Of a stretch of 64,000 nt of DNA, positions 9,371-61,000 are shown piece by piece (positions within the stretch are counted from its first letter, which is position 1; the number at the start of each line of letters is the position of its first letter). The notes under the pieces were generated by a model. The model saw nothing but the letters and a program-made list of their open reading frames with translations, searched no databases and was not told the DNA's origin. The stretch comes from Saprospiraceae bacterium (lineage in GTDB: Bacteria > Bacteroidota > Bacteroidia > Chitinophagales > Saprospiraceae), in assembly GCA_020848695.1 (NCBI GenBank), contig JADLHT010000017.1, forward strand, positions 103,478 to 167,477, in the 5' to 3' direction. The translations under genes and the position numbers were made by a program.

Positions 9371-11206
9371 TTATTGCTTTCTTTTGGTGTTTTTTAATTT
9401 CTCTTGCTCAAGTCTTTGTCGTTCTTTCATCAGTTCTTCCATTTTTTCTCTAAAGCCACCCTTTTTCTTAGGTTTGGATTTGTTGAGTTCCAATTGGGCT
9501 CGAATTTTCTCCGTATTAAACAATATACTTCTTCCAGCAAGTGTTTGACCAATGTTCAATAGATTGCTAAAAAACATATAACAAGTCAAACCAGCCGCAG
9601 TTTTATTGAACATGAACCAAAAAATCAAAGGCATTAGATACTGCATATACAACATCGCCGGATTTGATGAAAAATCAGTGGTCTTAGAGTTAAAGTATGT
9701 AAATATTACTGTTGAAACTACCCATAAAAAGGCAAATAAACTTAGTGTGTTTCCAAAAAAAGGAATAGAGAATGGAAGGTGCATGAATACATCATAAGAG
9801 GTTAGGTCTGTAGCCCATAAAAATGACTCTTGTCGAAATTCAATGGTTGCAGGAAAAAATCGGTACAAGGCAATCCAAATAGGAGTTTGTAATAATAAAG
9901 GAAGACATCCCCCAAGAGGATTAACACCAAATTCATTGTACATTTTCATGGTTTCCACCTGTTGTTGTTGCATATCATCTTTATGCTTCGCCTTTACTTT
10001 GTCTATCTCAGGTTTTAATGCTAACATTTTTGCCTGTGATTGCAACATTTTATAGGATAAGGGGAATACGACCAGTTTTACAATTAGTGTCATGATCAGG
10101 ATGATAATTCCTTTACTTCCTATCAAACCGGCTAAAAAGTTGAACAAGGGCCTAATTAAAAATTTATTAATGGTACCAAATATTGACCAACCATAAGAAA
10201 TTACGTCTTCAAGTTTATTATTGAATGCTTTCAAATGATTATATTCGTTAGGCCCAATGTACCATTGCATGTTCATGGTATTATTGTTGATCTGTGTTGA
10301 TGAAAACACCAAGGTTGATTTTAGTATTTTCATGTCTTCAGAATTTTCCGGCAACATTACGGTCTCAATATTACCTGATGAAAAAACATTTTCTGGGATT
10401 AAAGAACTGTTGAAAAACTGATTGGAATGGGAAACCCATTCTAGATTTTTCTTGCCTTCAACCAAATCACTGGAAGTACAGGAACAATAATTGGCGTTCT
10501 CCGATTTTTCTTTGTAATATGCCGAAGAATATGATTGTTCATATTGCGTGTTCTTTTCCAGACGATCTAAATGATTTTCCCAGTAAATTTGAACATTGTC
10601 GGTTAAGTTCATTCCCTCTGCTCGAATTTTGTAATCTAGCTTATAGGAATTAGCAGAAAGACTATATTCTTGAATGAAGTATCCTCCTTTGGGTGAAGCT
10701 GCTTTTAATATAAGTTTAGAATCATTGCTCTCGATTACCTCAAAATTAAGATTGGATGAATTAAGGTCTCCATTAGATGTTTTAAGTAAGTAGTCAAATT
10801 TGTTCTTGGGATCTTCGAGTAAATACAAATCCGTTTTGCTTTCATTCTGAGCACTATCCGTAATAATTTTAAAGTATTTTAAAATTTTTGCCGAACGAAT
10901 TTGTCCTCCTTTGTTGCTAATTGAAATATCTACCAAATTATTTTTTAAAGTATAATACTTTTCAACAAATCTTGATGAGTCTAAAATAGAAGAGTCAGTT
11001 GAAGAATTTATATTTGAATAATTGTTATCGGATTCATTTTGTGTTATTAATTTATCCTCATTATTAATTTTCTCAACTTGCTTAAGTGAGTCTTGTAATT
11101 TTTTTTCAATGGCTTGTTTTTCCATTTGGGGCTTAATAAAAAATTGACTCCAGCCGAGCATTACAACTAAGATTAAAACAAAACCTATGATATGATTACG
11201 ATCCAT
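9371..11206 (-). CDS. yidC: Membrane protein insertase YidC
   Basis: MDRNHIIGFVLILVVMLGWSQFF; periplasmic domain; LPLLLQTPIWIALYRFF and FNKTAAGLTCYMFFSNLLNIGQT. Confidence 0.95.
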   Translation of the reverse strand: MDRNHIIGFVLILVVMLGWSQFFIKPQMEKQAIEKKLQDSLKQVEKINNEDKLITQNESDNNYSNINSSTDSSILDSSRFVEKYYTLKNNLVDISISNKGGQIRSAKILKYFKIITDSAQNESKTDLYLLEDPKNKFDYLLKTSNGDLNSSNLNFEVIESNDSKLILKAASPKGGYFIQEYSLSANSYKLDYKIRAEGMNLTDNVQIYWENHLDRLEKNTQYEQSYSSAYYKEKSENANYCSCTSSDLVEGKKNLEWVSHSNQFFNSSLIPENVFSSGNIETVMLPENSEDMKILKSTLVFSSTQINNNTMNMQWYIGPNEYNHLKAFNNKLEDVISYGWSIFGTINKFLIRPLFNFLAGLIGSKGIIILIMTLIVKLVVFPLSYKMLQSQAKMLALKPEIDKVKAKHKDDMQQQQVETMKMYNEFGVNPLGGCLPLLLQTPIWIALYRFFPATIEFRQESFLWATDLTSYDVFMHLPFSIPFFGNTLSLFAFLWVVSTVIFTYFNSKTTDFSSNPAMLYMQYLMPLIFWFMFNKTAAGLTCYMFFSNLLNIGQTLAGRSILFNTEKIRAQLELNKSKPKKKGGFREKMEELMKERQRLEQEKLKNTKRKQ

Positions 11207-11226: not shown

Positions 11227-11234
11227 CAAAAGTA
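11227..11234 (-). promoter_or_regulatory. Candidate yidC proximal promoter -7 element (TACTTTTG)
   Basis: Reverse complement of CAAAAGTA matches TAnnTTTG, 21 nt before the yidC ATG and downstream of the ncRNA terminator. Confidence 0.45.
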
Positions 11235-11306: not shown

Positions 11307-11339
11307 AAAAAAAAACTATCCGAACCTTTGTTCGGATAG
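11307..11339 (-). terminator. Intrinsic terminator of the candidate ncRNA
   Basis: CTATCCGAAC-AAAG-GTTCGGATAG perfect 10-bp stem, 4-nt loop, followed by 9 U on the minus strand. Confidence 0.85.
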
Positions 11340-11530
11340 ATCCTAAGTCAGTAGTAGGTAAATATATGTAAGAAATTTAGGCTTGAGAAATGGATGAAAT
11401 CTGTGGAATAAACTCCGATACCCGGGTACCGGAGTTAACCTTACCTATTACTACCTGAGGTAAATAACAGATAAAATATCTAAGCCACAGATTTATCAAA
11501 TCGCACATTGTTGTTGTACACTAACGTCAC
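11307..11530 (-). ncRNA. Candidate structured noncoding RNA (or yidC leader), family not identified
   Basis: 10-bp stem 11485-11494/11397-11406 (AAATCTGTGG/CCACAGATTT); hairpin 11411-11436 (AACTCCGGTAC-CCGG-GTATCGGAGTT); hairpin 11441-11446/11458-11463; perfect terminator at 11307-11339; A/T tracts upstream. Confidence 0.65.
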
Positions 11531-11813
11531 ATAATAGATGATTCCCTTAATTTAAAATTCGCTGCTTTTTCTAAAAAGTTTTTTAAAAATTTTCTAAAAT
11601 ACTAATAATCATAATTTTAAATATTAATACTAATTTATATCTATTCCACTTGAATAAATGATGCTTATCTGATTGTCTAAAATTTGTTCATCTGATACAT
11701 TGAGTATAATATGTTGATATTCAACGATATGTAAACTATTAAATTCAAGTGAATCTCACAAAAAATAATTGAATAACCAGGCACATTGATTGTTTTTTTA
11801 TTTTTACAGGCTC

Positions 11814-18002: not shown

Positions 18003-18339
18003 AAATCAAAGTATTGTGTAAAGATAATTCTAAGAAGAGTATATTTCAATTCTTATAATTTCAGGAAGATAAAGACAATATATTAATAATCAATCTAATA
18101 TAAACGATATAATTCAATATAATCCATATAATTGATCCGCTACAAAAAATCTATGAAGTTACTGGCAGCGTTTTTGAATATCAAATAGTCAATTATGCAG
18201 TTAGGGGATAATTGAATGACTTACAATAAACTGACTAATAATTAATAAATTATAAATTAAGTTAAAAAAGTTTTAATTTAGACCCGTCAAAAGTAAAGTA
18301 TTAGGAAACAAATTAATGTATAATTCAAACATTTTCAAT

Positions 18340-21300
18340 ATGAAAAGAGTTTTTTACTTCTTTTTAACAACTATCTTTTTAGCTCTAGGGAATCATTTAT
18401 CTGCACAATGTACACCTCCTTCAGCCGATAATTGTGATGAGGCTAATGTTTTGTGTTCTCTGGATGAGGTTAATGGATATACCTGTATGAATACAGATTA
18501 TTCCAACCCAACCGGTTGTTCTCCTCTATGTCCAACAGGAGGTGGAGCGCACAATACAAGCTGGTGGGCATTTGTGACCGATGGTGGTAATGTCTGCGTG
18601 ACTATAACTTTTTCCAATTGTACAGTGAATGGAACCGGTGTGCAATTCGGTATATGGGGAGACTGTAATTGTGGTGAATCCATTTTCTGTGATCCAAATT
18701 GTAACGGACCGGGAACAAAGACAGCATGTGGAAATCTAGAGCCCTGTAAGACCTATTACCTTTTCGTTGATGGTTGTACAGGAGATGTTTGTAATTTCAC
18801 AATTAACACTTCGGGAGGAAGCGCTCCAATGTTGCCTCCTTTGGGCAACCTAACAGGTCCAACTACTTTGTGTAAGGGCGCATGTAATGTAAAATATTCG
18901 ATTGATCTATTAGGTGGAGGAGCTTGTGCACCAGCCTGGCAATGGACACTGGATGGAGTGGAAATACCGGATCAATACAATAAAGATATTTTTCTGGACT
19001 TTCCGGATGAAGGTGATTTTACCCTTTGTGTTACTGCCATCATCGGAAACCCTCAGTCCGGTTCTATCTGTGATCAGGAAGGTCCTAAATGTATAACAAT
19101 TAAGGTGAGACAAGAAAAGGATCGAAGAGATGGTCCCAGATATATCTGCTTTGAAAATGCGCCAATAACCTGGCAAGGGAATACAGTCGATGCAACAGGA
19201 GAATATACAGCTCACTTTAAAGATAAAAATTGTTGTGAATATGATTCGGTGGTATCCTTTATAGTATTGCCTGAAGTGGAGCCTCCTACGGTTTATTTTC
19301 TAGGCTGTATAGGCGAAACCTATAAAGATCCCACTACAGGAAAACTATTTTCAAATTGCCAAAATGGTACTGAGATTGAACTAAAAAAAGCAACTAACCC
19401 ACACAAATGTGACAGTTCATACAATCTTGTGGCAGCTTTTATTAATGGTACAGGAAGAATGCGTGAATATTGTCAAGGGGGAATGATCTTATTGGAAGTT
19501 TCTCCAATAGACAGAACTTGCCCCGATGGGGGATATGTTACTGAATCTTATGGATATAAATGGTATTTAAAAACAGATCCTTCTAAAAAATCAATTGGTT
19601 CCGATGAATTTCTAGAGGTGACTCAAAAAGACGAATACTGTGTTGAAATAACATTTTTTGGAAGACTTGAAAATCAAACCAAACAATGTAAGTTTGATAT
19701 TTGTGAACAGTTTAATGAGGATGATTTCAAGTATAAGAAAATTTGCCCTAAAGGAGAACAATTATTGTGTCTGGGTAAAACAGGTAAATATTCTGTTGAC
19801 ACAATATTCCCTGCTGATGCTCGGCATATTTGGACAGTATCAGGAGGAAAATTATTAACCACGAATCCAATTGCATCAAAAGAAATAGAAGTTTTATGGG
19901 ATTTTAATCCTGCTCCTGCAAAACAATATACAGGTATAATATGCTATCATATGGAAAGTTCCTGTCCTCCAACTGAAGAATGTTGCATTGATGTTGTAAT
20001 CAAAGTCGCTCCACAGCCAAGCGCGGGTCCGGATGATAGGATTTGCGGTTTAGACTACAAATTGAGAGGTAAATCAGATGTTGGAAACGGAACATGGACA
20101 CAGGTTCCAGGTGGGCCAACAACAACCATTACGCCACCTAACTCGCCAAATCCGGATGTAAACTCAAATGGATACGGAAGAGCAGTTTTTGTTTATTCTG
20201 AAACAGACTTAGGTTGTACAACAGAAGACACGGTTGTAATTGATTTCAATGAAAGTCCAATTAATGGACCATTAACCTATATATGTGGATCATCGAATAA
20301 GGATTTTGTCGCGACATTCCAGATTATTGGGGGTAAGGCACCGTTCAAAGTAATCAGAGGCAATGGTACTGTTGATTCTCTTGGTATTTATACCTCAAAA
20401 ACCATAAACAATTTAACGGATGAAATAATCGAAGTAGAAGATGTAAATGGATGTCGATTTACATTTACTATTAATTACGAATGTAAATGCACCAATGACA
20501 TTGGAGTGATGGATACCAGATCTAAAGATTTATGCCAGGATCAATGCTTGGATATTTATGCAGATAATTTGTATGACAACAGAAATGAAAAATTAGATCA
20601 AAATCCTAGGGACACATTAATTTTCTTTGTGTATACGGATCCAAATAATTTACAAGGTTCTACACGATTCAATTTAACCAGTACAAGAATTTGTTATGAT
20701 CCAAATAAATATACTTTTGGTCAAACTTTCTATGTTGGAGCAAAAATAGGTCGTGCCAACAATCGAGGAGATATTGATCCTATAAAGGGTTGTGTTCGTA
20801 TTAATGGAGGAACACCAATAACATTCTATGAAATCCCAAGACCTGATGCAGGACCTGATCGATCCGTTTGTGGTTTTTCTGTTGATTTAGAAGGAACTAA
20901 ATCATTAGTTGTTACAAAGGGATCATGGAAAGAAGTTAACAACAGGAATGTAAAATATTTTGATATTACTGATCCTGTAACGAATGTTGAAATATTAGAT
21001 GGATTTGGGGTTTATACATTTGAATACACCGAGGACAACAACAATGGACTTTGTGTAACCACAGATCGTGTTAATATAACCTTCAATCCTAATCCTGAAT
21101 TAGCCAATATTGATAAAATATGCACAAAATTTGGAGCAATCGGACAAACAGATGGTAAGTATGTGGCAACCGTAGATATTACAACAGGTACTGGTCCGTA
21201 TATTTTAGTTATTCCTCCTTCAACTCCAAATGGAAAAATAGTTGGAAATCAATGGGTGTCTGATACGATTGATAGCAATTCTAATTTTATTATTGTGGTA

Positions 21301-24108
21301 AGAGATGCAAATGGTTGTGAATCTCAGCTGTTGGATGATAATCACAATTGTAATTGCGGTGCTGTTGATGCCGGTAAACTTGACTCAAATCTTACAAGAG
21401 TATGTATTGATAAATGTGTAACAATAAAAAATATTATAGGGGAAACTATCGATCCGGAGGATATAGTAATGTTTATACTTCATAAATTTCCAACGGGTTA
21501 TAATAACCCAGCGAATGTGTTGGATACCATATATGATATCAATCAATTGATTTGCTTTGACCCTAAAACAATGGGTACGGGTTCCAATAATCCGGTATTT
21601 GTCACAAGAATTGTAGGCGACGATATTGCACCTCAGGATGGTGTTGTTGATCCTAAAGATCCTTGTAGGAGGGCGTCAAATCCGATGGAAATTGTTTTTG
21701 AACCTTATGCCGCACCGGATGCAGGATTAGATGGCAAAATATGTGGTTTAAATTATACCATGAAAGGGGTATTGACTTTTGGAAATGCTAATTGGAGATT
21801 AATCAGCGGACCTGGAAATTCAACTTTCTCAGATCCTACTGATCCTGTAACTCCAATTTCAGTTAGTACGATTGGAACTTATACCTATGAAATATCCGGT
21901 GATAACTTTGGTTGTATTGGATTGGATACAGTTAGTGTAACTTTTGTTGATGAACCGAAATTTACAGGAGTGAAAAGTATTGTTTGCGATAATGTTGCAG
22001 AAAATTACAAAATTGTAGTTGGGGCAGATTTTGGTGACAGACCAACCTGGGATCTAAAAGGAACGTTTGACAACGGAACAAATTCATTGCCGGGAACCTA
22101 TCTTGTTCCTAATGGTAAAGATTGGGAATCTGGCTGGATTCCGACCGGAAATAATTATGACCTTAGTATTGAAGATGCTAATAAATGTGCAATAGACAAG
22201 ATAAATGGTTCACATGTTTGTCCCTGTATTACTTTGCCGGGTACTGTGGTACTGACTCCTAAAGATTTGTGCCAGACTACTTGTGCTCAAGCCGTTTATA
22301 CGCCTGGTGCTATGGATGCAAATGATGTATTTAGATACATTTTATATGATGGTCTTCCCACTGACCCTAACAATGGAACAAGGTTAAGCTTTAATGACAA
22401 TGGTAGATTTTGTTTTGATCCGGCTAAGATGACGCTAGGAAAAACTTATTACGTTGCGGTCTATGCAGGTAATCTTGATCCCGCTACCGGCAATGTATTG
22501 TTTTCAGACCGTTGCATACAAAGGACAGATGGCGTTCCCGTTACCTGGTATGATGATCCTAAAGCTCTTATCACCGGACCTAATTTACTAACTTGTAAAG
22601 ATTCGGTACTTATTTTAAGTGGTAATACTTCAAGCTCAGCTTCAGGAGATCAACTCACGTATAGCTGGAACAATGGTACCTTAGGTTCAACATCTACAAT
22701 TTCAATTACTACTCCAGGTACCTACAAGCTTGATGTTGTTGATCCAAGAGCAGGTTGTACTAATAGTATAACTTTCGTTGTAACTCAAGATATTACAAAG
22801 CCAATTGTACAGATAGAGCCACCGTTGGAAATTACCTGTGATAGGACAGTAGTAAATTTGGATGGAAATAAATCTGATAAAGGAGCTATTTATTCTCCAA
22901 ACTGGACTCCTGTAGTTAATGGTAGTAATTCTTATTTGGCTTCTACCAGTACGCCCGGAATTTATACATTAACTGTTATCAATACATTTAATGGATGTAA
23001 GGATTCAAAAACAATTACAGTAACAGAAGATAAGGTTCCACCTACAGCAGATATTAAAACAATTGGACAATTAACCTGTACAGTGAATCAAGTAACTCTT
23101 GATGGAACAGGTTCGAGACCTAATTCCGGTAATGGTCTTACCTATACTTGGATTGGTAATCTAATCAACGGGCAAGGTACTGCAAATGCGACAGTTGGTA
23201 AACCTGGAGGAAACTTTGTTCTTGAAGTAAAAGACAATAAAAATGGATGTATTTCGAGAGATACTATTTTGGTAACAGAAATTGGAAATCCACTTGGGGA
23301 TTTAGTTTCAACACCGCAAAATCCAACTTGTCATGGTGATGTGAATGGACAGATTGTGATTAAAGAAGTCAGAGATAAAAATGGTAATATACTTAATGGA
23401 AATTTCACTTTCTCTATTAACGGTGGCCCATTTACAAGCAACACATCTTTTACAAATCTTAGACAAGGTCAATATACGATAATGGTTAAAGATGCCAATG
23501 GATGCTTGTTGACCGATACAGAAGTTCTAGTCGAACCAAGTAAATTGGGGATTGATGTTATTCGTTCTATAGTAGTAGAGCAGGGCACAGAAGTTAATCT
23601 GGACAGTTTGTTAATTGCACTCTTCGGAGGTACGCCTGATGCAAATGGTAATTATAAAGATACTTTATGGTTTAATTTGGATGAAAATAAATCGTGGCCA
23701 AATCGATATATTGCTGACACGACCAGAGAATTTAGAGTTACAGGTATCGATATCCCGGGATGTGAAATTAATGATAGGGTAAGAGTATTGGTTAGAATAG
23801 TTAAGGAAGTTTGGTGGCCAAATGTTATTAATCCTAATTCTGGAACTTCTGAAAATAATTTCTTTAATCTTTATGGAAAACGAGTTCGAGAAGTAAAACT
23901 GTTAAATATTTATGACAGATGGGGAGAATTGGTTTATTCTGATCAACATCTTCCTGATGGAAATAGAGGAGGTAGAAACCGTGGCTGGAATGGAAATTTC
24001 AACGGGGAAAAAGCTCTCCCCGGGGTTTATGTATTCTATGCAGAAGTTCAATACGAAGGATCTGCTTCGGTTGATAAGTTCAAAGGTGAGTTTACCTTGT
24101 TGAGATAA
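18340..24108 (+). CDS. Giant surface protein with gliding motility-associated (CHU_C) C-terminal domain; paralog of 58008-63779
   Basis: Signal peptide from MKRVFYFFLTTIFLALGNHLSAQ; Cys-rich N-terminal domain; repeated AGPD..ICG modules; C-terminal VWWPNVINPNSG...NIYDRWGELVY...GWNGNFNGEKALPGVYVFYAEV. Confidence 0.88.
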   Translation: MKRVFYFFLTTIFLALGNHLSAQCTPPSADNCDEANVLCSLDEVNGYTCMNTDYSNPTGCSPLCPTGGGAHNTSWWAFVTDGGNVCVTITFSNCTVNGTGVQFGIWGDCNCGESIFCDPNCNGPGTKTACGNLEPCKTYYLFVDGCTGDVCNFTINTSGGSAPMLPPLGNLTGPTTLCKGACNVKYSIDLLGGGACAPAWQWTLDGVEIPDQYNKDIFLDFPDEGDFTLCVTAIIGNPQSGSICDQEGPKCITIKVRQEKDRRDGPRYICFENAPITWQGNTVDATGEYTAHFKDKNCCEYDSVVSFIVLPEVEPPTVYFLGCIGETYKDPTTGKLFSNCQNGTEIELKKATNPHKCDSSYNLVAAFINGTGRMREYCQGGMILLEVSPIDRTCPDGGYVTESYGYKWYLKTDPSKKSIGSDEFLEVTQKDEYCVEITFFGRLENQTKQCKFDICEQFNEDDFKYKKICPKGEQLLCLGKTGKYSVDTIFPADARHIWTVSGGKLLTTNPIASKEIEVLWDFNPAPAKQYTGIICYHMESSCPPTEECCIDVVIKVAPQPSAGPDDRICGLDYKLRGKSDVGNGTWTQVPGGPTTTITPPNSPNPDVNSNGYGRAVFVYSETDLGCTTEDTVVIDFNESPINGPLTYICGSSNKDFVATFQIIGGKAPFKVIRGNGTVDSLGIYTSKTINNLTDEIIEVEDVNGCRFTFTINYECKCTNDIGVMDTRSKDLCQDQCLDIYADNLYDNRNEKLDQNPRDTLIFFVYTDPNNLQGSTRFNLTSTRICYDPNKYTFGQTFYVGAKIGRANNRGDIDPIKGCVRINGGTPITFYEIPRPDAGPDRSVCGFSVDLEGTKSLVVTKGSWKEVNNRNVKYFDITDPVTNVEILDGFGVYTFEYTEDNNNGLCVTTDRVNITFNPNPELANIDKICTKFGAIGQTDGKYVATVDITTGTGPYILVIPPSTPNGKIVGNQWVSDTIDSNSNFIIVVRDANGCESQLLDDNHNCNCGAVDAGKLDSNLTRVCIDKCVTIKNIIGETIDPEDIVMFILHKFPTGYNNPANVLDTIYDINQLICFDPKTMGTGSNNPVFVTRIVGDDIAPQDGVVDPKDPCRRASNPMEIVFEPYAAPDAGLDGKICGLNYTMKGVLTFGNANWRLISGPGNSTFSDPTDPVTPISVSTIGTYTYEISGDNFGCIGLDTVSVTFVDEPKFTGVKSIVCDNVAENYKIVVGADFGDRPTWDLKGTFDNGTNSLPGTYLVPNGKDWESGWIPTGNNYDLSIEDANKCAIDKINGSHVCPCITLPGTVVLTPKDLCQTTCAQAVYTPGAMDANDVFRYILYDGLPTDPNNGTRLSFNDNGRFCFDPAKMTLGKTYYVAVYAGNLDPATGNVLFSDRCIQRTDGVPVTWYDDPKALITGPNLLTCKDSVLILSGNTSSSASGDQLTYSWNNGTLGSTSTISITTPGTYKLDVVDPRAGCTNSITFVVTQDITKPIVQIEPPLEITCDRTVVNLDGNKSDKGAIYSPNWTPVVNGSNSYLASTSTPGIYTLTVINTFNGCKDSKTITVTEDKVPPTADIKTIGQLTCTVNQVTLDGTGSRPNSGNGLTYTWIGNLINGQGTANATVGKPGGNFVLEVKDNKNGCISRDTILVTEIGNPLGDLVSTPQNPTCHGDVNGQIVIKEVRDKNGNILNGNFTFSINGGPFTSNTSFTNLRQGQYTIMVKDANGCLLTDTEVLVEPSKLGIDVIRSIVVEQGTEVNLDSLLIALFGGTPDANGNYKDTLWFNLDENKSWPNRYIADTTREFRVTGIDIPGCEINDRVRVLVRIVKEVWWPNVINPNSGTSENNFFNLYGKRVREVKLLNIYDRWGELVYSDQHLPDGNRGGRNRGWNGNFNGEKALPGVYVFYAEVQYEGSASVDKFKGEFTLLR

Positions 24109-58007: not shown

Positions 58008-61000
58008 ATGTGTAAGAATCATATTTCTTCTACTACTTTTTTGTGCTGCTTATTATTTTACATAATTCTTATACCTTGTAGCTTATTCGCACAAGATTGT
58101 GTCCCTCCTGCAGCCAATACGTGTGAAAAAGCAAATATTCTTTGTTCTTTAGAAAGCGTTAGTGGATATAAATGTAAAAATACAGATCAACCAAACGATA
58201 CAGCTTGCAAACCATTGTGTCCTTCCGGAGGTATTGCTAATAATATTAGTTGGTGGGCATTTGTTACGAATGGTGGCAACATTACAATAAACATTGATGT
58301 CTCAAATTGCTCAATTACAGGAACGGGAGTTCAATTGGGTATCTGGGCAGATTGTAATTGTGTAGATACAGTGATATGTAATATTTCCTGTCAATCACAA
58401 ACAAGTATTTCAATCCAAGCCAATTTAATTCCTTGCAAGAAATATTATTTTTTTGTTGATGGCTGTACCGGTGATGTTTGTGATTTTGTACTTACAACAA
58501 GTGGGGGAACATCGCCTAAGGTAGATTCAATCCGTCGTATCATCGGAATCGATACACTTTGTCCCAGTAGTTGTGCAAATAATTATTTTGTTGATTCAGA
58601 TACTTCTGTCTGCAAACCAACTTATACCTGGACTATAGATGGAGTAGAAGTTCAAAAAGATACTTCCAGAAAATTAACTTATGCTTTTCTTAATCAAGGT
58701 TCTTTTCTAATGTGTGTTACAGGAGCCTTAGACAATATTGGAGCTGCCGGTTCATGCGGGGCATTTGGACCTGTTTGTAAAACAATTTTTGTTGAGAATT
58801 TGCCGATTCATAGAGGGCCTACAGTCATTTTGTGTTCCGAAGATGTTCCTTATCAATGGCATAGTCATACGATTCTAAACAGTGGAGTCTATACTGAAAG
58901 ATTTACTCTCAATTGCTGTGATTACGACTCTATTAGAACATTTCAGGTTCTTCCACCGCCAACTAAAGAAGATATTTTTTACCTAGGTTGCAGAGACGGG
59001 GATAATCAATATAACGATAGTATTAATAAAGTTACTTATTCCAGTTGTCAAGATGGAATTGATATAATTTATAGGAATCGAACAAGTGATGGTTGTGACA
59101 GCTCTATTCGATTGTTTTTTACATATTTGGATATGGATGCCACAATCAAAGAGTATTGCGAGGGTGGAAAAAGTTTTGTAGAAATAAACGCGATCGACAA
59201 GACTTGTTCAGTTCAGAATTTTTCTTCATTAGGATTTGAATATTCTTGGGTTAAACAAAGTAGCGGGAATACAATACTTGGTACAAATAGTAAATTAGAG
59301 ATTTCAGGAAATGACCAATATTGTGTAGATGTAATTTTAACTGGAAATTTAAATACAATTACAAGGAAATGCACTGTGAGAATATGTGAAGATTTAAATG
59401 AGGATCTTCTTCAACCAAAGATGGTTTGTCCGAAAGGTGATTTAGAACTTTGTCGAGGAGAAACAGGACAGTATTCATCGGATACTATTTTCCCTAACAA
59501 TGTTAGACATATATGGACAATAACAAACGGTTCTATAGTATCAGGTAATGGTACCGCTACTATTAACGTTTTGTGGGATTTTGATCCCGGAGCAGGAATT
59601 CCATTTATTGGTAAAATATGTTATTATTATGAAAGTGATTGTCCTGTCAGTCCTGAGTGTTGTATAGAAGTCAATGTTCAGCCATTTCCGGCTCCTGATG
59701 CAGGACCCGATAAGTCTGTCTGTGGTCTGGTCAATTCATTAGATGGCAATGCAAGTTCTGAAATAATGTGGAGGCAAATTTCAGGACCATCAGCATCTAT
59801 AATTTTACCTGCCAATGTTTCTAAGCCTACTGTTACCGTAACTTCTTTTGGCTCTTATACTTACGAACTTGAAGAGACGAGATTTGGATGCACAGCAAAG
59901 GACACTGTTACTTTGAATTTCTATGATTCTCCGCAAAGTTCAAATATTAGTTTTACCTGTAATCCTGCTCAGACCTCATTCGTAATGAAAACTGACATTG
60001 TTAAAGGTAGTCCTCCATATAGAATTGTGAAAGGCAATGGAATGATAATAAATGGATCTACCTATATGTCTTTACAAATTAACAACAATGTTCAGGACAC
60101 AGTTCAGATTGTTGATAATAATAATTGTATAGTCGAAATTATTTATACCCATGAATGTAATTGTTCCAATGAGATTGGTAAAATTTCTACTCTTCTTCAA
60201 AAAGTTTGTGAAGATCAACTTGTAAAAATAATTTATGATAATTCTAATGAAAAACTAGATCAAAATCCAAATAGGGACACTGTAGTTTATTTTACTTATT
60301 CTAATCCAGGAAATCCATTAGGAAGTATAATTGAATTTTTGAATTCAAGTAGTTTTGGGTACGACCCAAAGTATGTTTATGGAGTTACTTATTTTATTGG
60401 TGCAAGATTGGGAAGAGCTGATGGTAACGGAGGTATCGATAATGGAAAAGGATGTATTAAGACTTCCTTTGGTACACCCTTTGTATTCGTTCAATACCCA
60501 AATCCTTTAGCCGGAAGAGATACAGCAATATGCGGAACTAGTTTTCTGTTGGATGGATTTCAATCGCTTCCTGGAACTTCAGTTATGTGGAAAGTTTTAG
60601 GGGGACGAGCTGCAAAAATAAGCAGCCCAAATCTTTCAAGTACATTGGTAGAGCCTTTAAGCGGATATGGTGATTATGTGTTTGAGTTTACCGAAATAAA
60701 TGATAATCTATGTTCGAAAACAGATCAACTTACCATAACTTTTAATGAGAATCCAAATCTTTCTAATTTATTTAAATTTTGTACTGAACTAGGGTCGTCT
60801 AGCACAAATCCTGGAAAGTTTCAAGCTAGTATTGAGTTAAATGGTGGCAAACCTCCTTATGTTTTAGTTACACCTCCGTCAACAAATAATGGCAGTATTA
60901 ATGGTAATCTGTGGATGTCAAATGACATAGTTAGTCTCGACAGTTTTATTATACAAATCATGGATGCCAATGGCTGTGTCTCATCTGTTTTGCGTAATTC

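Follow-up and report, generated by a model that had tools for sequence, protein, structure and literature searches.

A predicted small RNA gene between aroA and yidC

Most likely, a small regulatory RNA is encoded in the interval that separates aroA from yidC, and judged by its conservation the RNA gene is real. The reading that we favor, and consider rather probable, is of a stand-alone, trans-acting base-pairing sRNA, presumably driven by an ECF sigma factor, whose 3′ strand (termed C) pairs with the leader of gldK and represses that gene. The predicted RNA of ~223 nt occupies positions 11307–11530 on the minus strand of the window (the whole 64,000-nt stretch of DNA that was analyzed, from contig C17 of the 3.18-Mb genome G000), and is flanked by aroA on the plus strand and by yidC on the minus strand. 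A covariance model of the RNA, R1, matched all nine genomes of the genus sample (G000–G008; Saprospiraceae or Bacteroidota MAGs, G000 being the window's own) with E values of 7e-28 to 5e-33. A scan with R1 that took in 248 genomes of the family and 41 relatives located the RNA in this genus alone; none of the 111 other family genera (112 scanned) gave a match, with stricter scan filters that can lose weak matches. The pattern GTRGTRATAGGTAAGGTT occurs in 26 stretches of GTDB genomes, where strong R1 matches are restricted to Saprospiraceae/Bacteroidota MAGs of this genus; six viral contigs carrying the pattern gave no R1 match.

The preliminary description of this DNA, made by eye, had proposed an unannotated, structured, stand-alone ncRNA and had suggested searching Rfam. 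That search returned nothing for the window at the gathering threshold, and the only low-threshold matches, to MicC, BSR1350, Spot 42 and an Aspergillus RNA, lay far under the gathering score and were set aside as chance. ARAGORN detected no tmRNA, with its tRNA-like ends and tag frame, in the window; the preliminary description had likewise noted no tmRNA hallmarks. Together with the Rfam result, a low-energy fold, covarying helices, an own terminator and a separate promoter box for yidC support the proposal of a stand-alone RNA.

Fold and covariation

For the minus strand the predicted fold has -66 kcal/mol compared with -43.2 ± 4.6 kcal/mol for shuffled sequences (z = -5.0; 0 of 200 as low), and the plus-strand fold is weaker. 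An alignment of eight sequences retains three helices, namely A:B, P2 and the terminator. Pairing is kept in 95% of cells in these helices as opposed to <47% in slid helices, and nine pairs show double-sided changes versus 4.3 ± 1.3 after shuffling. The comparison of related genomes that had been advised at the outset yielded homologous intergenic regions with compensatory changes.

The A:B helix, absent from the preliminary list of pairings, joins CTRTYA to TRATAG (11465–11470 with 11445–11450, minus strand). Arm A, the 5′ side of this hairpin (11458–11476, minus strand; core CTGTTA at 11465–11470), is paired in 94.9% of cells, and one A:B pair changes on both sides between CG and UA in half of the aligned sequences. 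Arm B (GTAGTAATAGGTAA, 11441–11454, minus strand) is near invariant; besides pairing with A it shows complementarity to strand C and similarity to the site in the gldK leader. Hairpin P2 (11411–11436, minus strand) has four double-sided pair changes and 97% of cells paired, and its loop reads CCCGGG in eight of the nine genomes and CCGG in all of them. The intrinsic terminator (11307–11339, minus strand), consisting of a 10-bp stem, an AAAG loop and T9, is kept in all sequences and likewise has four double-sided pair changes. As a separate observation, the CCCGGG of the P2 loop (11421–11426, minus strand) is self-complementary in 8/9 genomes and might permit loop–loop dimers.

Every pairing named in the preliminary description is present in the window: a stem of 11485–11494 with 11397–11406, a hairpin of 11426–11436 with 11411–11421 closing on a CCGG loop, the terminator stem 11330–11339/11316–11325 followed by T9, and complementarity of 11441–11454 to 11351–11361. 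Set against the eight other genomes of the genus, these pairings fare differently. The P2 and terminator hairpins are conserved with double-sided changes; the outer 10-bp stem (AAATCTGTGG/CCACAGATTT) is not conserved and recurs only partially in one close relative; and the local TTACCT/AGGTAA hairpin fails where TTACCT is absent, as in L004 and L005.

Two mutually exclusive pairings of arm B had also been suggested. The complementarity needed for the second of them, B:C, is indeed conserved, as it exists in every sequence and hardly ever varies; for that same reason covariation cannot test B:C. The notion of a switch is where the suggestion falls short. In nine predicted transcripts of 202–235 nt the A:B helix has a probability of 0.81–1.00, and B:C is 7–16 kcal/mol costlier than A:B in each. 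Because A:B is favored in all nine and the invariance of C is explicable by pairing with gldK, a switch is unproven. Strand C is 37–94% unpaired in the predicted folds, and the RNA most likely exposes it beside the terminator.

Could the constraint on this region be that of a short translated ORF rather than of an RNA? A frame through arm B (...QVVIGKV...) is open in 8/9 genomes, and the little variation that B shows is at third positions; these substitutions are also compatible with pairing to A. However, L005 has an in-frame stop just 5′ of B, groups of sequences differ in P2 length by 1 or 3 nt such that the frame shifts while pairing stays, and neither the start nor the C-terminus is conserved. 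We consider translation very improbable, and the stop in L005 and the frame shifts in P2 led us to reject a leader-peptide ORF.

Relation to yidC

The gene for the membrane insertase YidC (9371–11206, minus strand; NCBIfam PRK01318, 525 bits vs a cut-off of 460) lies directly 3′ of the RNA and on the same strand in all nine genomes. The identity of yidC across the genus is only 47–72%, yet a DNA search located RNA homologs upstream of it in all eight other genomes. This constant position, together with the presence of mutually exclusive pairings and a terminator, is what would be expected of a cis-acting yidC leader. In such an attenuator or riboswitch the choice between B:C and A:B would decide whether transcription reads through the terminator into yidC. 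Several features argue against such a leader, and we judge it improbable. Transcription of yidC would have to pass solely through the element, whereas a TAnnTTTG (-7) box of yidC's own promoter (TACTTTTG, 11227–11234, minus strand) is located beyond the terminator; the preliminary description had noticed this box, and one precedes yidC in 9/9 genomes. The gap between terminator and yidC varies from 87 to ~330 nt. The terminator stem overlaps with neither A:B nor B:C and would stay free in both states, so the choice between them has no obvious bearing on termination. Finally, strand C recurs beside the terminator of an unrelated gene.

Strand C and the gldK leader

What would strand C pair with? 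This predicted seed (AUUUACCUACUACUG, 11349–11363, minus strand), the 3′ strand with the invariant sequence UUACCUACUACUG, has the same core in 9/9 genomes and is mostly unpaired in the predicted fold. Targets were sought among near-matches to the complement of C, most of which were inspected in their sequence context for a position next to a start codon. The first sighting was a site at the same place before a lipoprotein gene in two genomes, and this gene was chosen out of ~150 near-matches and then confirmed in the remaining genomes. Its best family is GldK/PorK (247 bits over a 225-residue N-terminal fragment, the 350-bit cut-off applying to the whole protein). GldK is a lipoprotein of the type IX secretion ring and a core part of that machine.

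In all nine gldK orthologs AGTAGGTAA occupies positions -21 to -7 relative to the start codon, in a predicted leader of 34–40 nt whose flanks are variable, and the C complement AGUAGGUAA is invariant at these positions, such that a conserved seed faces a conserved complement at an mRNA start throughout the genus sample. Positions 11352–11363 of the RNA pair 12/12 with the gldK leader in the window's genome. Twelve continuous pairs are formed in G000, G001 and G002; G008 likewise reaches 12, its end pair being U-A in place of A-U; the leaders of G003–G007 have only 9 continuous pairs plus a second block, UGUCUU:AAGACA (6 bp). Duplex energies range from -14.6 to -21.3 kcal/mol. The gldK leaders of the nine genomes are the nine best among 188 gene starts, a sample partly selected by near-matches, and gldK ranks first when the 278 gene starts within 463 kb of G000 are scored (mean -6.2, sd 2.5). 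Shuffled seeds performed as well as C in 0–6 per 1000 trials.

Surface-protein genes were also considered as targets; CAGTAGTAAGTAACGATG is present in one homolog (L175/L101, G001) and is missing in ~27 others inspected, and this match was attributed to chance. A copy of AGTAGGTAA is additionally located ~30–42 nt upstream of the ATG of a secreted-protein gene (MRSTTIVLLISINSLFSQ..., L281, contig C98 of G002), and could be either a second target or a chance occurrence.

The constraint on strand C also bears on an earlier suggestion that the element might be a lineage-specific 6S-type RNA. A length of ~200 nt fits that class, as does the fact that the genome otherwise has no 6S match. Yet the sequence constraint resides in C, matching gldK, and the RNA is limited to one genus; moreover, the consensus comprises separate hairpins and a 3′ terminator rather than a single stem conserved from end to end and interrupted by a central bubble. 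The 6S models RF00013 and RF01685 found no match in the window's own genome, in a search whose 6S-Flavo control matched nowhere. A 6S identity is for us scarcely credible.

A second copy of C in an OmpA-like 3′ UTR

The 3′ UTR of an OmpA-like lipoprotein gene also carries a C module (TTACCTACTACTG) ahead of its intrinsic terminator; the module was seen first in G002 and G008 and occurs in 8/9 genomes, having been lost in G005. This copy is predicted to pair with the gldK leader at -13.3 to -18.6 kcal/mol. The arrangement resembles that of 3′ UTR-derived sRNAs in that the seed lies just before a terminator, a separate processed RNA being putative here. At L109–L111 the same 3′ UTR has an extra hairpin, GGG(A/C)AAAAAAGTTTG(T/C)CC, followed by T runs, ahead of the C module, possibly forming a tandem terminator.

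The existence of this copy raises an alternative in which the OmpA-like 3′ UTR RNA is the true gldK regulator and the aroA/yidC RNA is a sponge, or target mimic, whose arm B captures it. The pairing energies of the OmpA-like copy with gldK would allow this, and B, being near invariant, is more strictly conserved than its pairing with A would require and is complementary to the C of both RNAs. Against this, B is locked inside A:B, the RNA keeps an invariant C of its own, and G005 retains both the RNA and the gldK site without the OmpA-like copy. We hold a sponge to be unlikely.

Promoter and possible link to an ECF sigma factor

Upstream of the RNA is a candidate ECF-type promoter, AGCAGCG-N17-ATC (11533–11568, minus strand), with a predicted start at ~11530 and a spacing that is invariant in 9/9 genomes. 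The consensus is (A/G)GCA(A/G)C(A/G)-N17-(A/G)TC, most relatives having GGCAGCA-N17-GTCTTA. All nine genomes thereby possess, at the sequence level, a promoter-like element and a terminator that belong to the RNA and are apart from the flanking genes.

A degenerate promoter search revealed a copy immediately before an ECF sigma gene in G003, which scored 32.2 with a weight matrix trained on the RNA promoters alone (training scores 26–37). Orthologs of this sigma gene are present in 7/9 genomes; six of the seven score 14–32 at ~50 nt upstream, and the seventh has upstream GGGCAGCATTTCAACAACTTAAAGGATCT, which was recognized by eye. Other ECF genes have GGCARC paired with CGT-type -10 boxes. G005 and G008 (97% and 66% complete, respectively) yielded no ortholog, although their RNA promoters are intact. 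The RNA promoter appears to be ECF-type and, given the two genomes without an ortholog, this sigma factor is a candidate for it.

Model for control of gldK and its relation to known systems

We hypothesize that the ECF-type promoter drives an RNA of ~200–235 nt that, going by sequence and covariation, would stop at its own terminator. The A:B and P2 hairpins are predicted to form first, which would leave strand C free just 5′ of the terminator and able to pair with AGUAGGUAA(A), a site that lies 7–21 nt before the start codon of gldK, where complementarity is seen in 9/9 genomes. By covering the ribosome-binding region of gldK, strand C would repress GldK and probably the whole operon that gldK leads; we infer repression, and not activation, from the position of the site alone. 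The OmpA-like 3′ UTR RNA, having the same C and a terminator, probably targets the same site. Arm B, which resembles the gldK site and is sequestered within A:B, could, more speculatively, silence or titrate the seed. Pairing in vivo, repression, an effect on type IX secretion and ECF control are all inferred from the nucleotide patterns described above.

A more elaborate version, which we put forward tentatively and regard as doubtful, is that GldK levels, and with them the level of type IX secretion, are set by a single seed common to two RNAs, one ECF-controlled and the other from the 3′ end of the OmpA-like mRNA. Arm B, through refolding from A:B to B:C or by acting in trans, would titrate both seeds and make the brake self-limiting. 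If true, such a brake would couple the state of the envelope to assembly of the secretion machine.

The proposed sRNA has parallels in other bacteria. MicA, RybB and VrrA are Sigma-E-dependent sRNAs of enterobacteria and vibrios that repress omp mRNAs (PMC1804206, PMC2628432). The favored model shares with them the sequence of an envelope ECF sigma factor, a stand-alone sRNA, and repressive pairing with an outer-membrane protein mRNA close to its start, the sigma factor and repression being putative in this case. It differs from them in phylum, sequence and fold, in a seed that lies beside the terminator instead of at the 5′ end, and in a predicted target that is a type IX secretion component. 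If true, the model would carry over to the Bacteroidota a scheme known from enteric bacteria, in which an envelope sigma factor acts through an sRNA on an outer-membrane mRNA.

Within that phylum, the SM6 (ECF) motif of Flavobacterium psychrophilum, with a CGT box, precedes an ECF sigma/anti-sigma pair, Rfp11, gldN and porU, and the sRNA Rfp18 is also described in that species (PMC9723704). By regulon content this is a similar case of a Bacteroidota ECF-type regulon with a regulatory RNA and T9SS genes. However, the promoter box here is GTC and not CGT, and GldN and PorU are direct sigma targets there and not known sRNA targets. In Porphyromonas gingivalis the ECF factor SigP (PorXY-SigP) controls T9SS genes (PMC4800418), which again ties an ECF sigma factor to T9SS component genes, but SigP activates at promoters without an RNA. 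No sRNA acting on gldK/porK or on type IX secretion was found in text searches of the open-licence literature. Known control of type IX secretion is transcriptional (PorXY, SigP). Since the predictions for target site, seed and promoter class go down to single bases in each of nine genomes, the idea can be tested directly.

ECF-like promoter elements elsewhere in the genus

Elements resembling the RNA promoter were also noted at other genes. GCAGC(G/A)-N17-(A/G)TCT-like elements lie just before start codons in L166, L168, L180, L181, L183, L186 and others, and their occurrence at many members of one surface-protein family across the genus suggests a large ECF regulon of surface proteins. In the window itself, an ECF-like promoter (CTGGCAGCGTTTTTGAATATCAAATAGTCAATTATG, score 16.6) is located at 18162–18197 on the plus strand, before an ORF at 18316–24108. 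The element sits ~120–150 nt ahead of this ORF, whose product, a 1930-aa surface protein of that family, has a T9SS type B sorting domain that is only weakly matched. From position 58008 onward the plus strand encodes another family member, of 1923 aa and 46% identical to the first in the N-terminal part.
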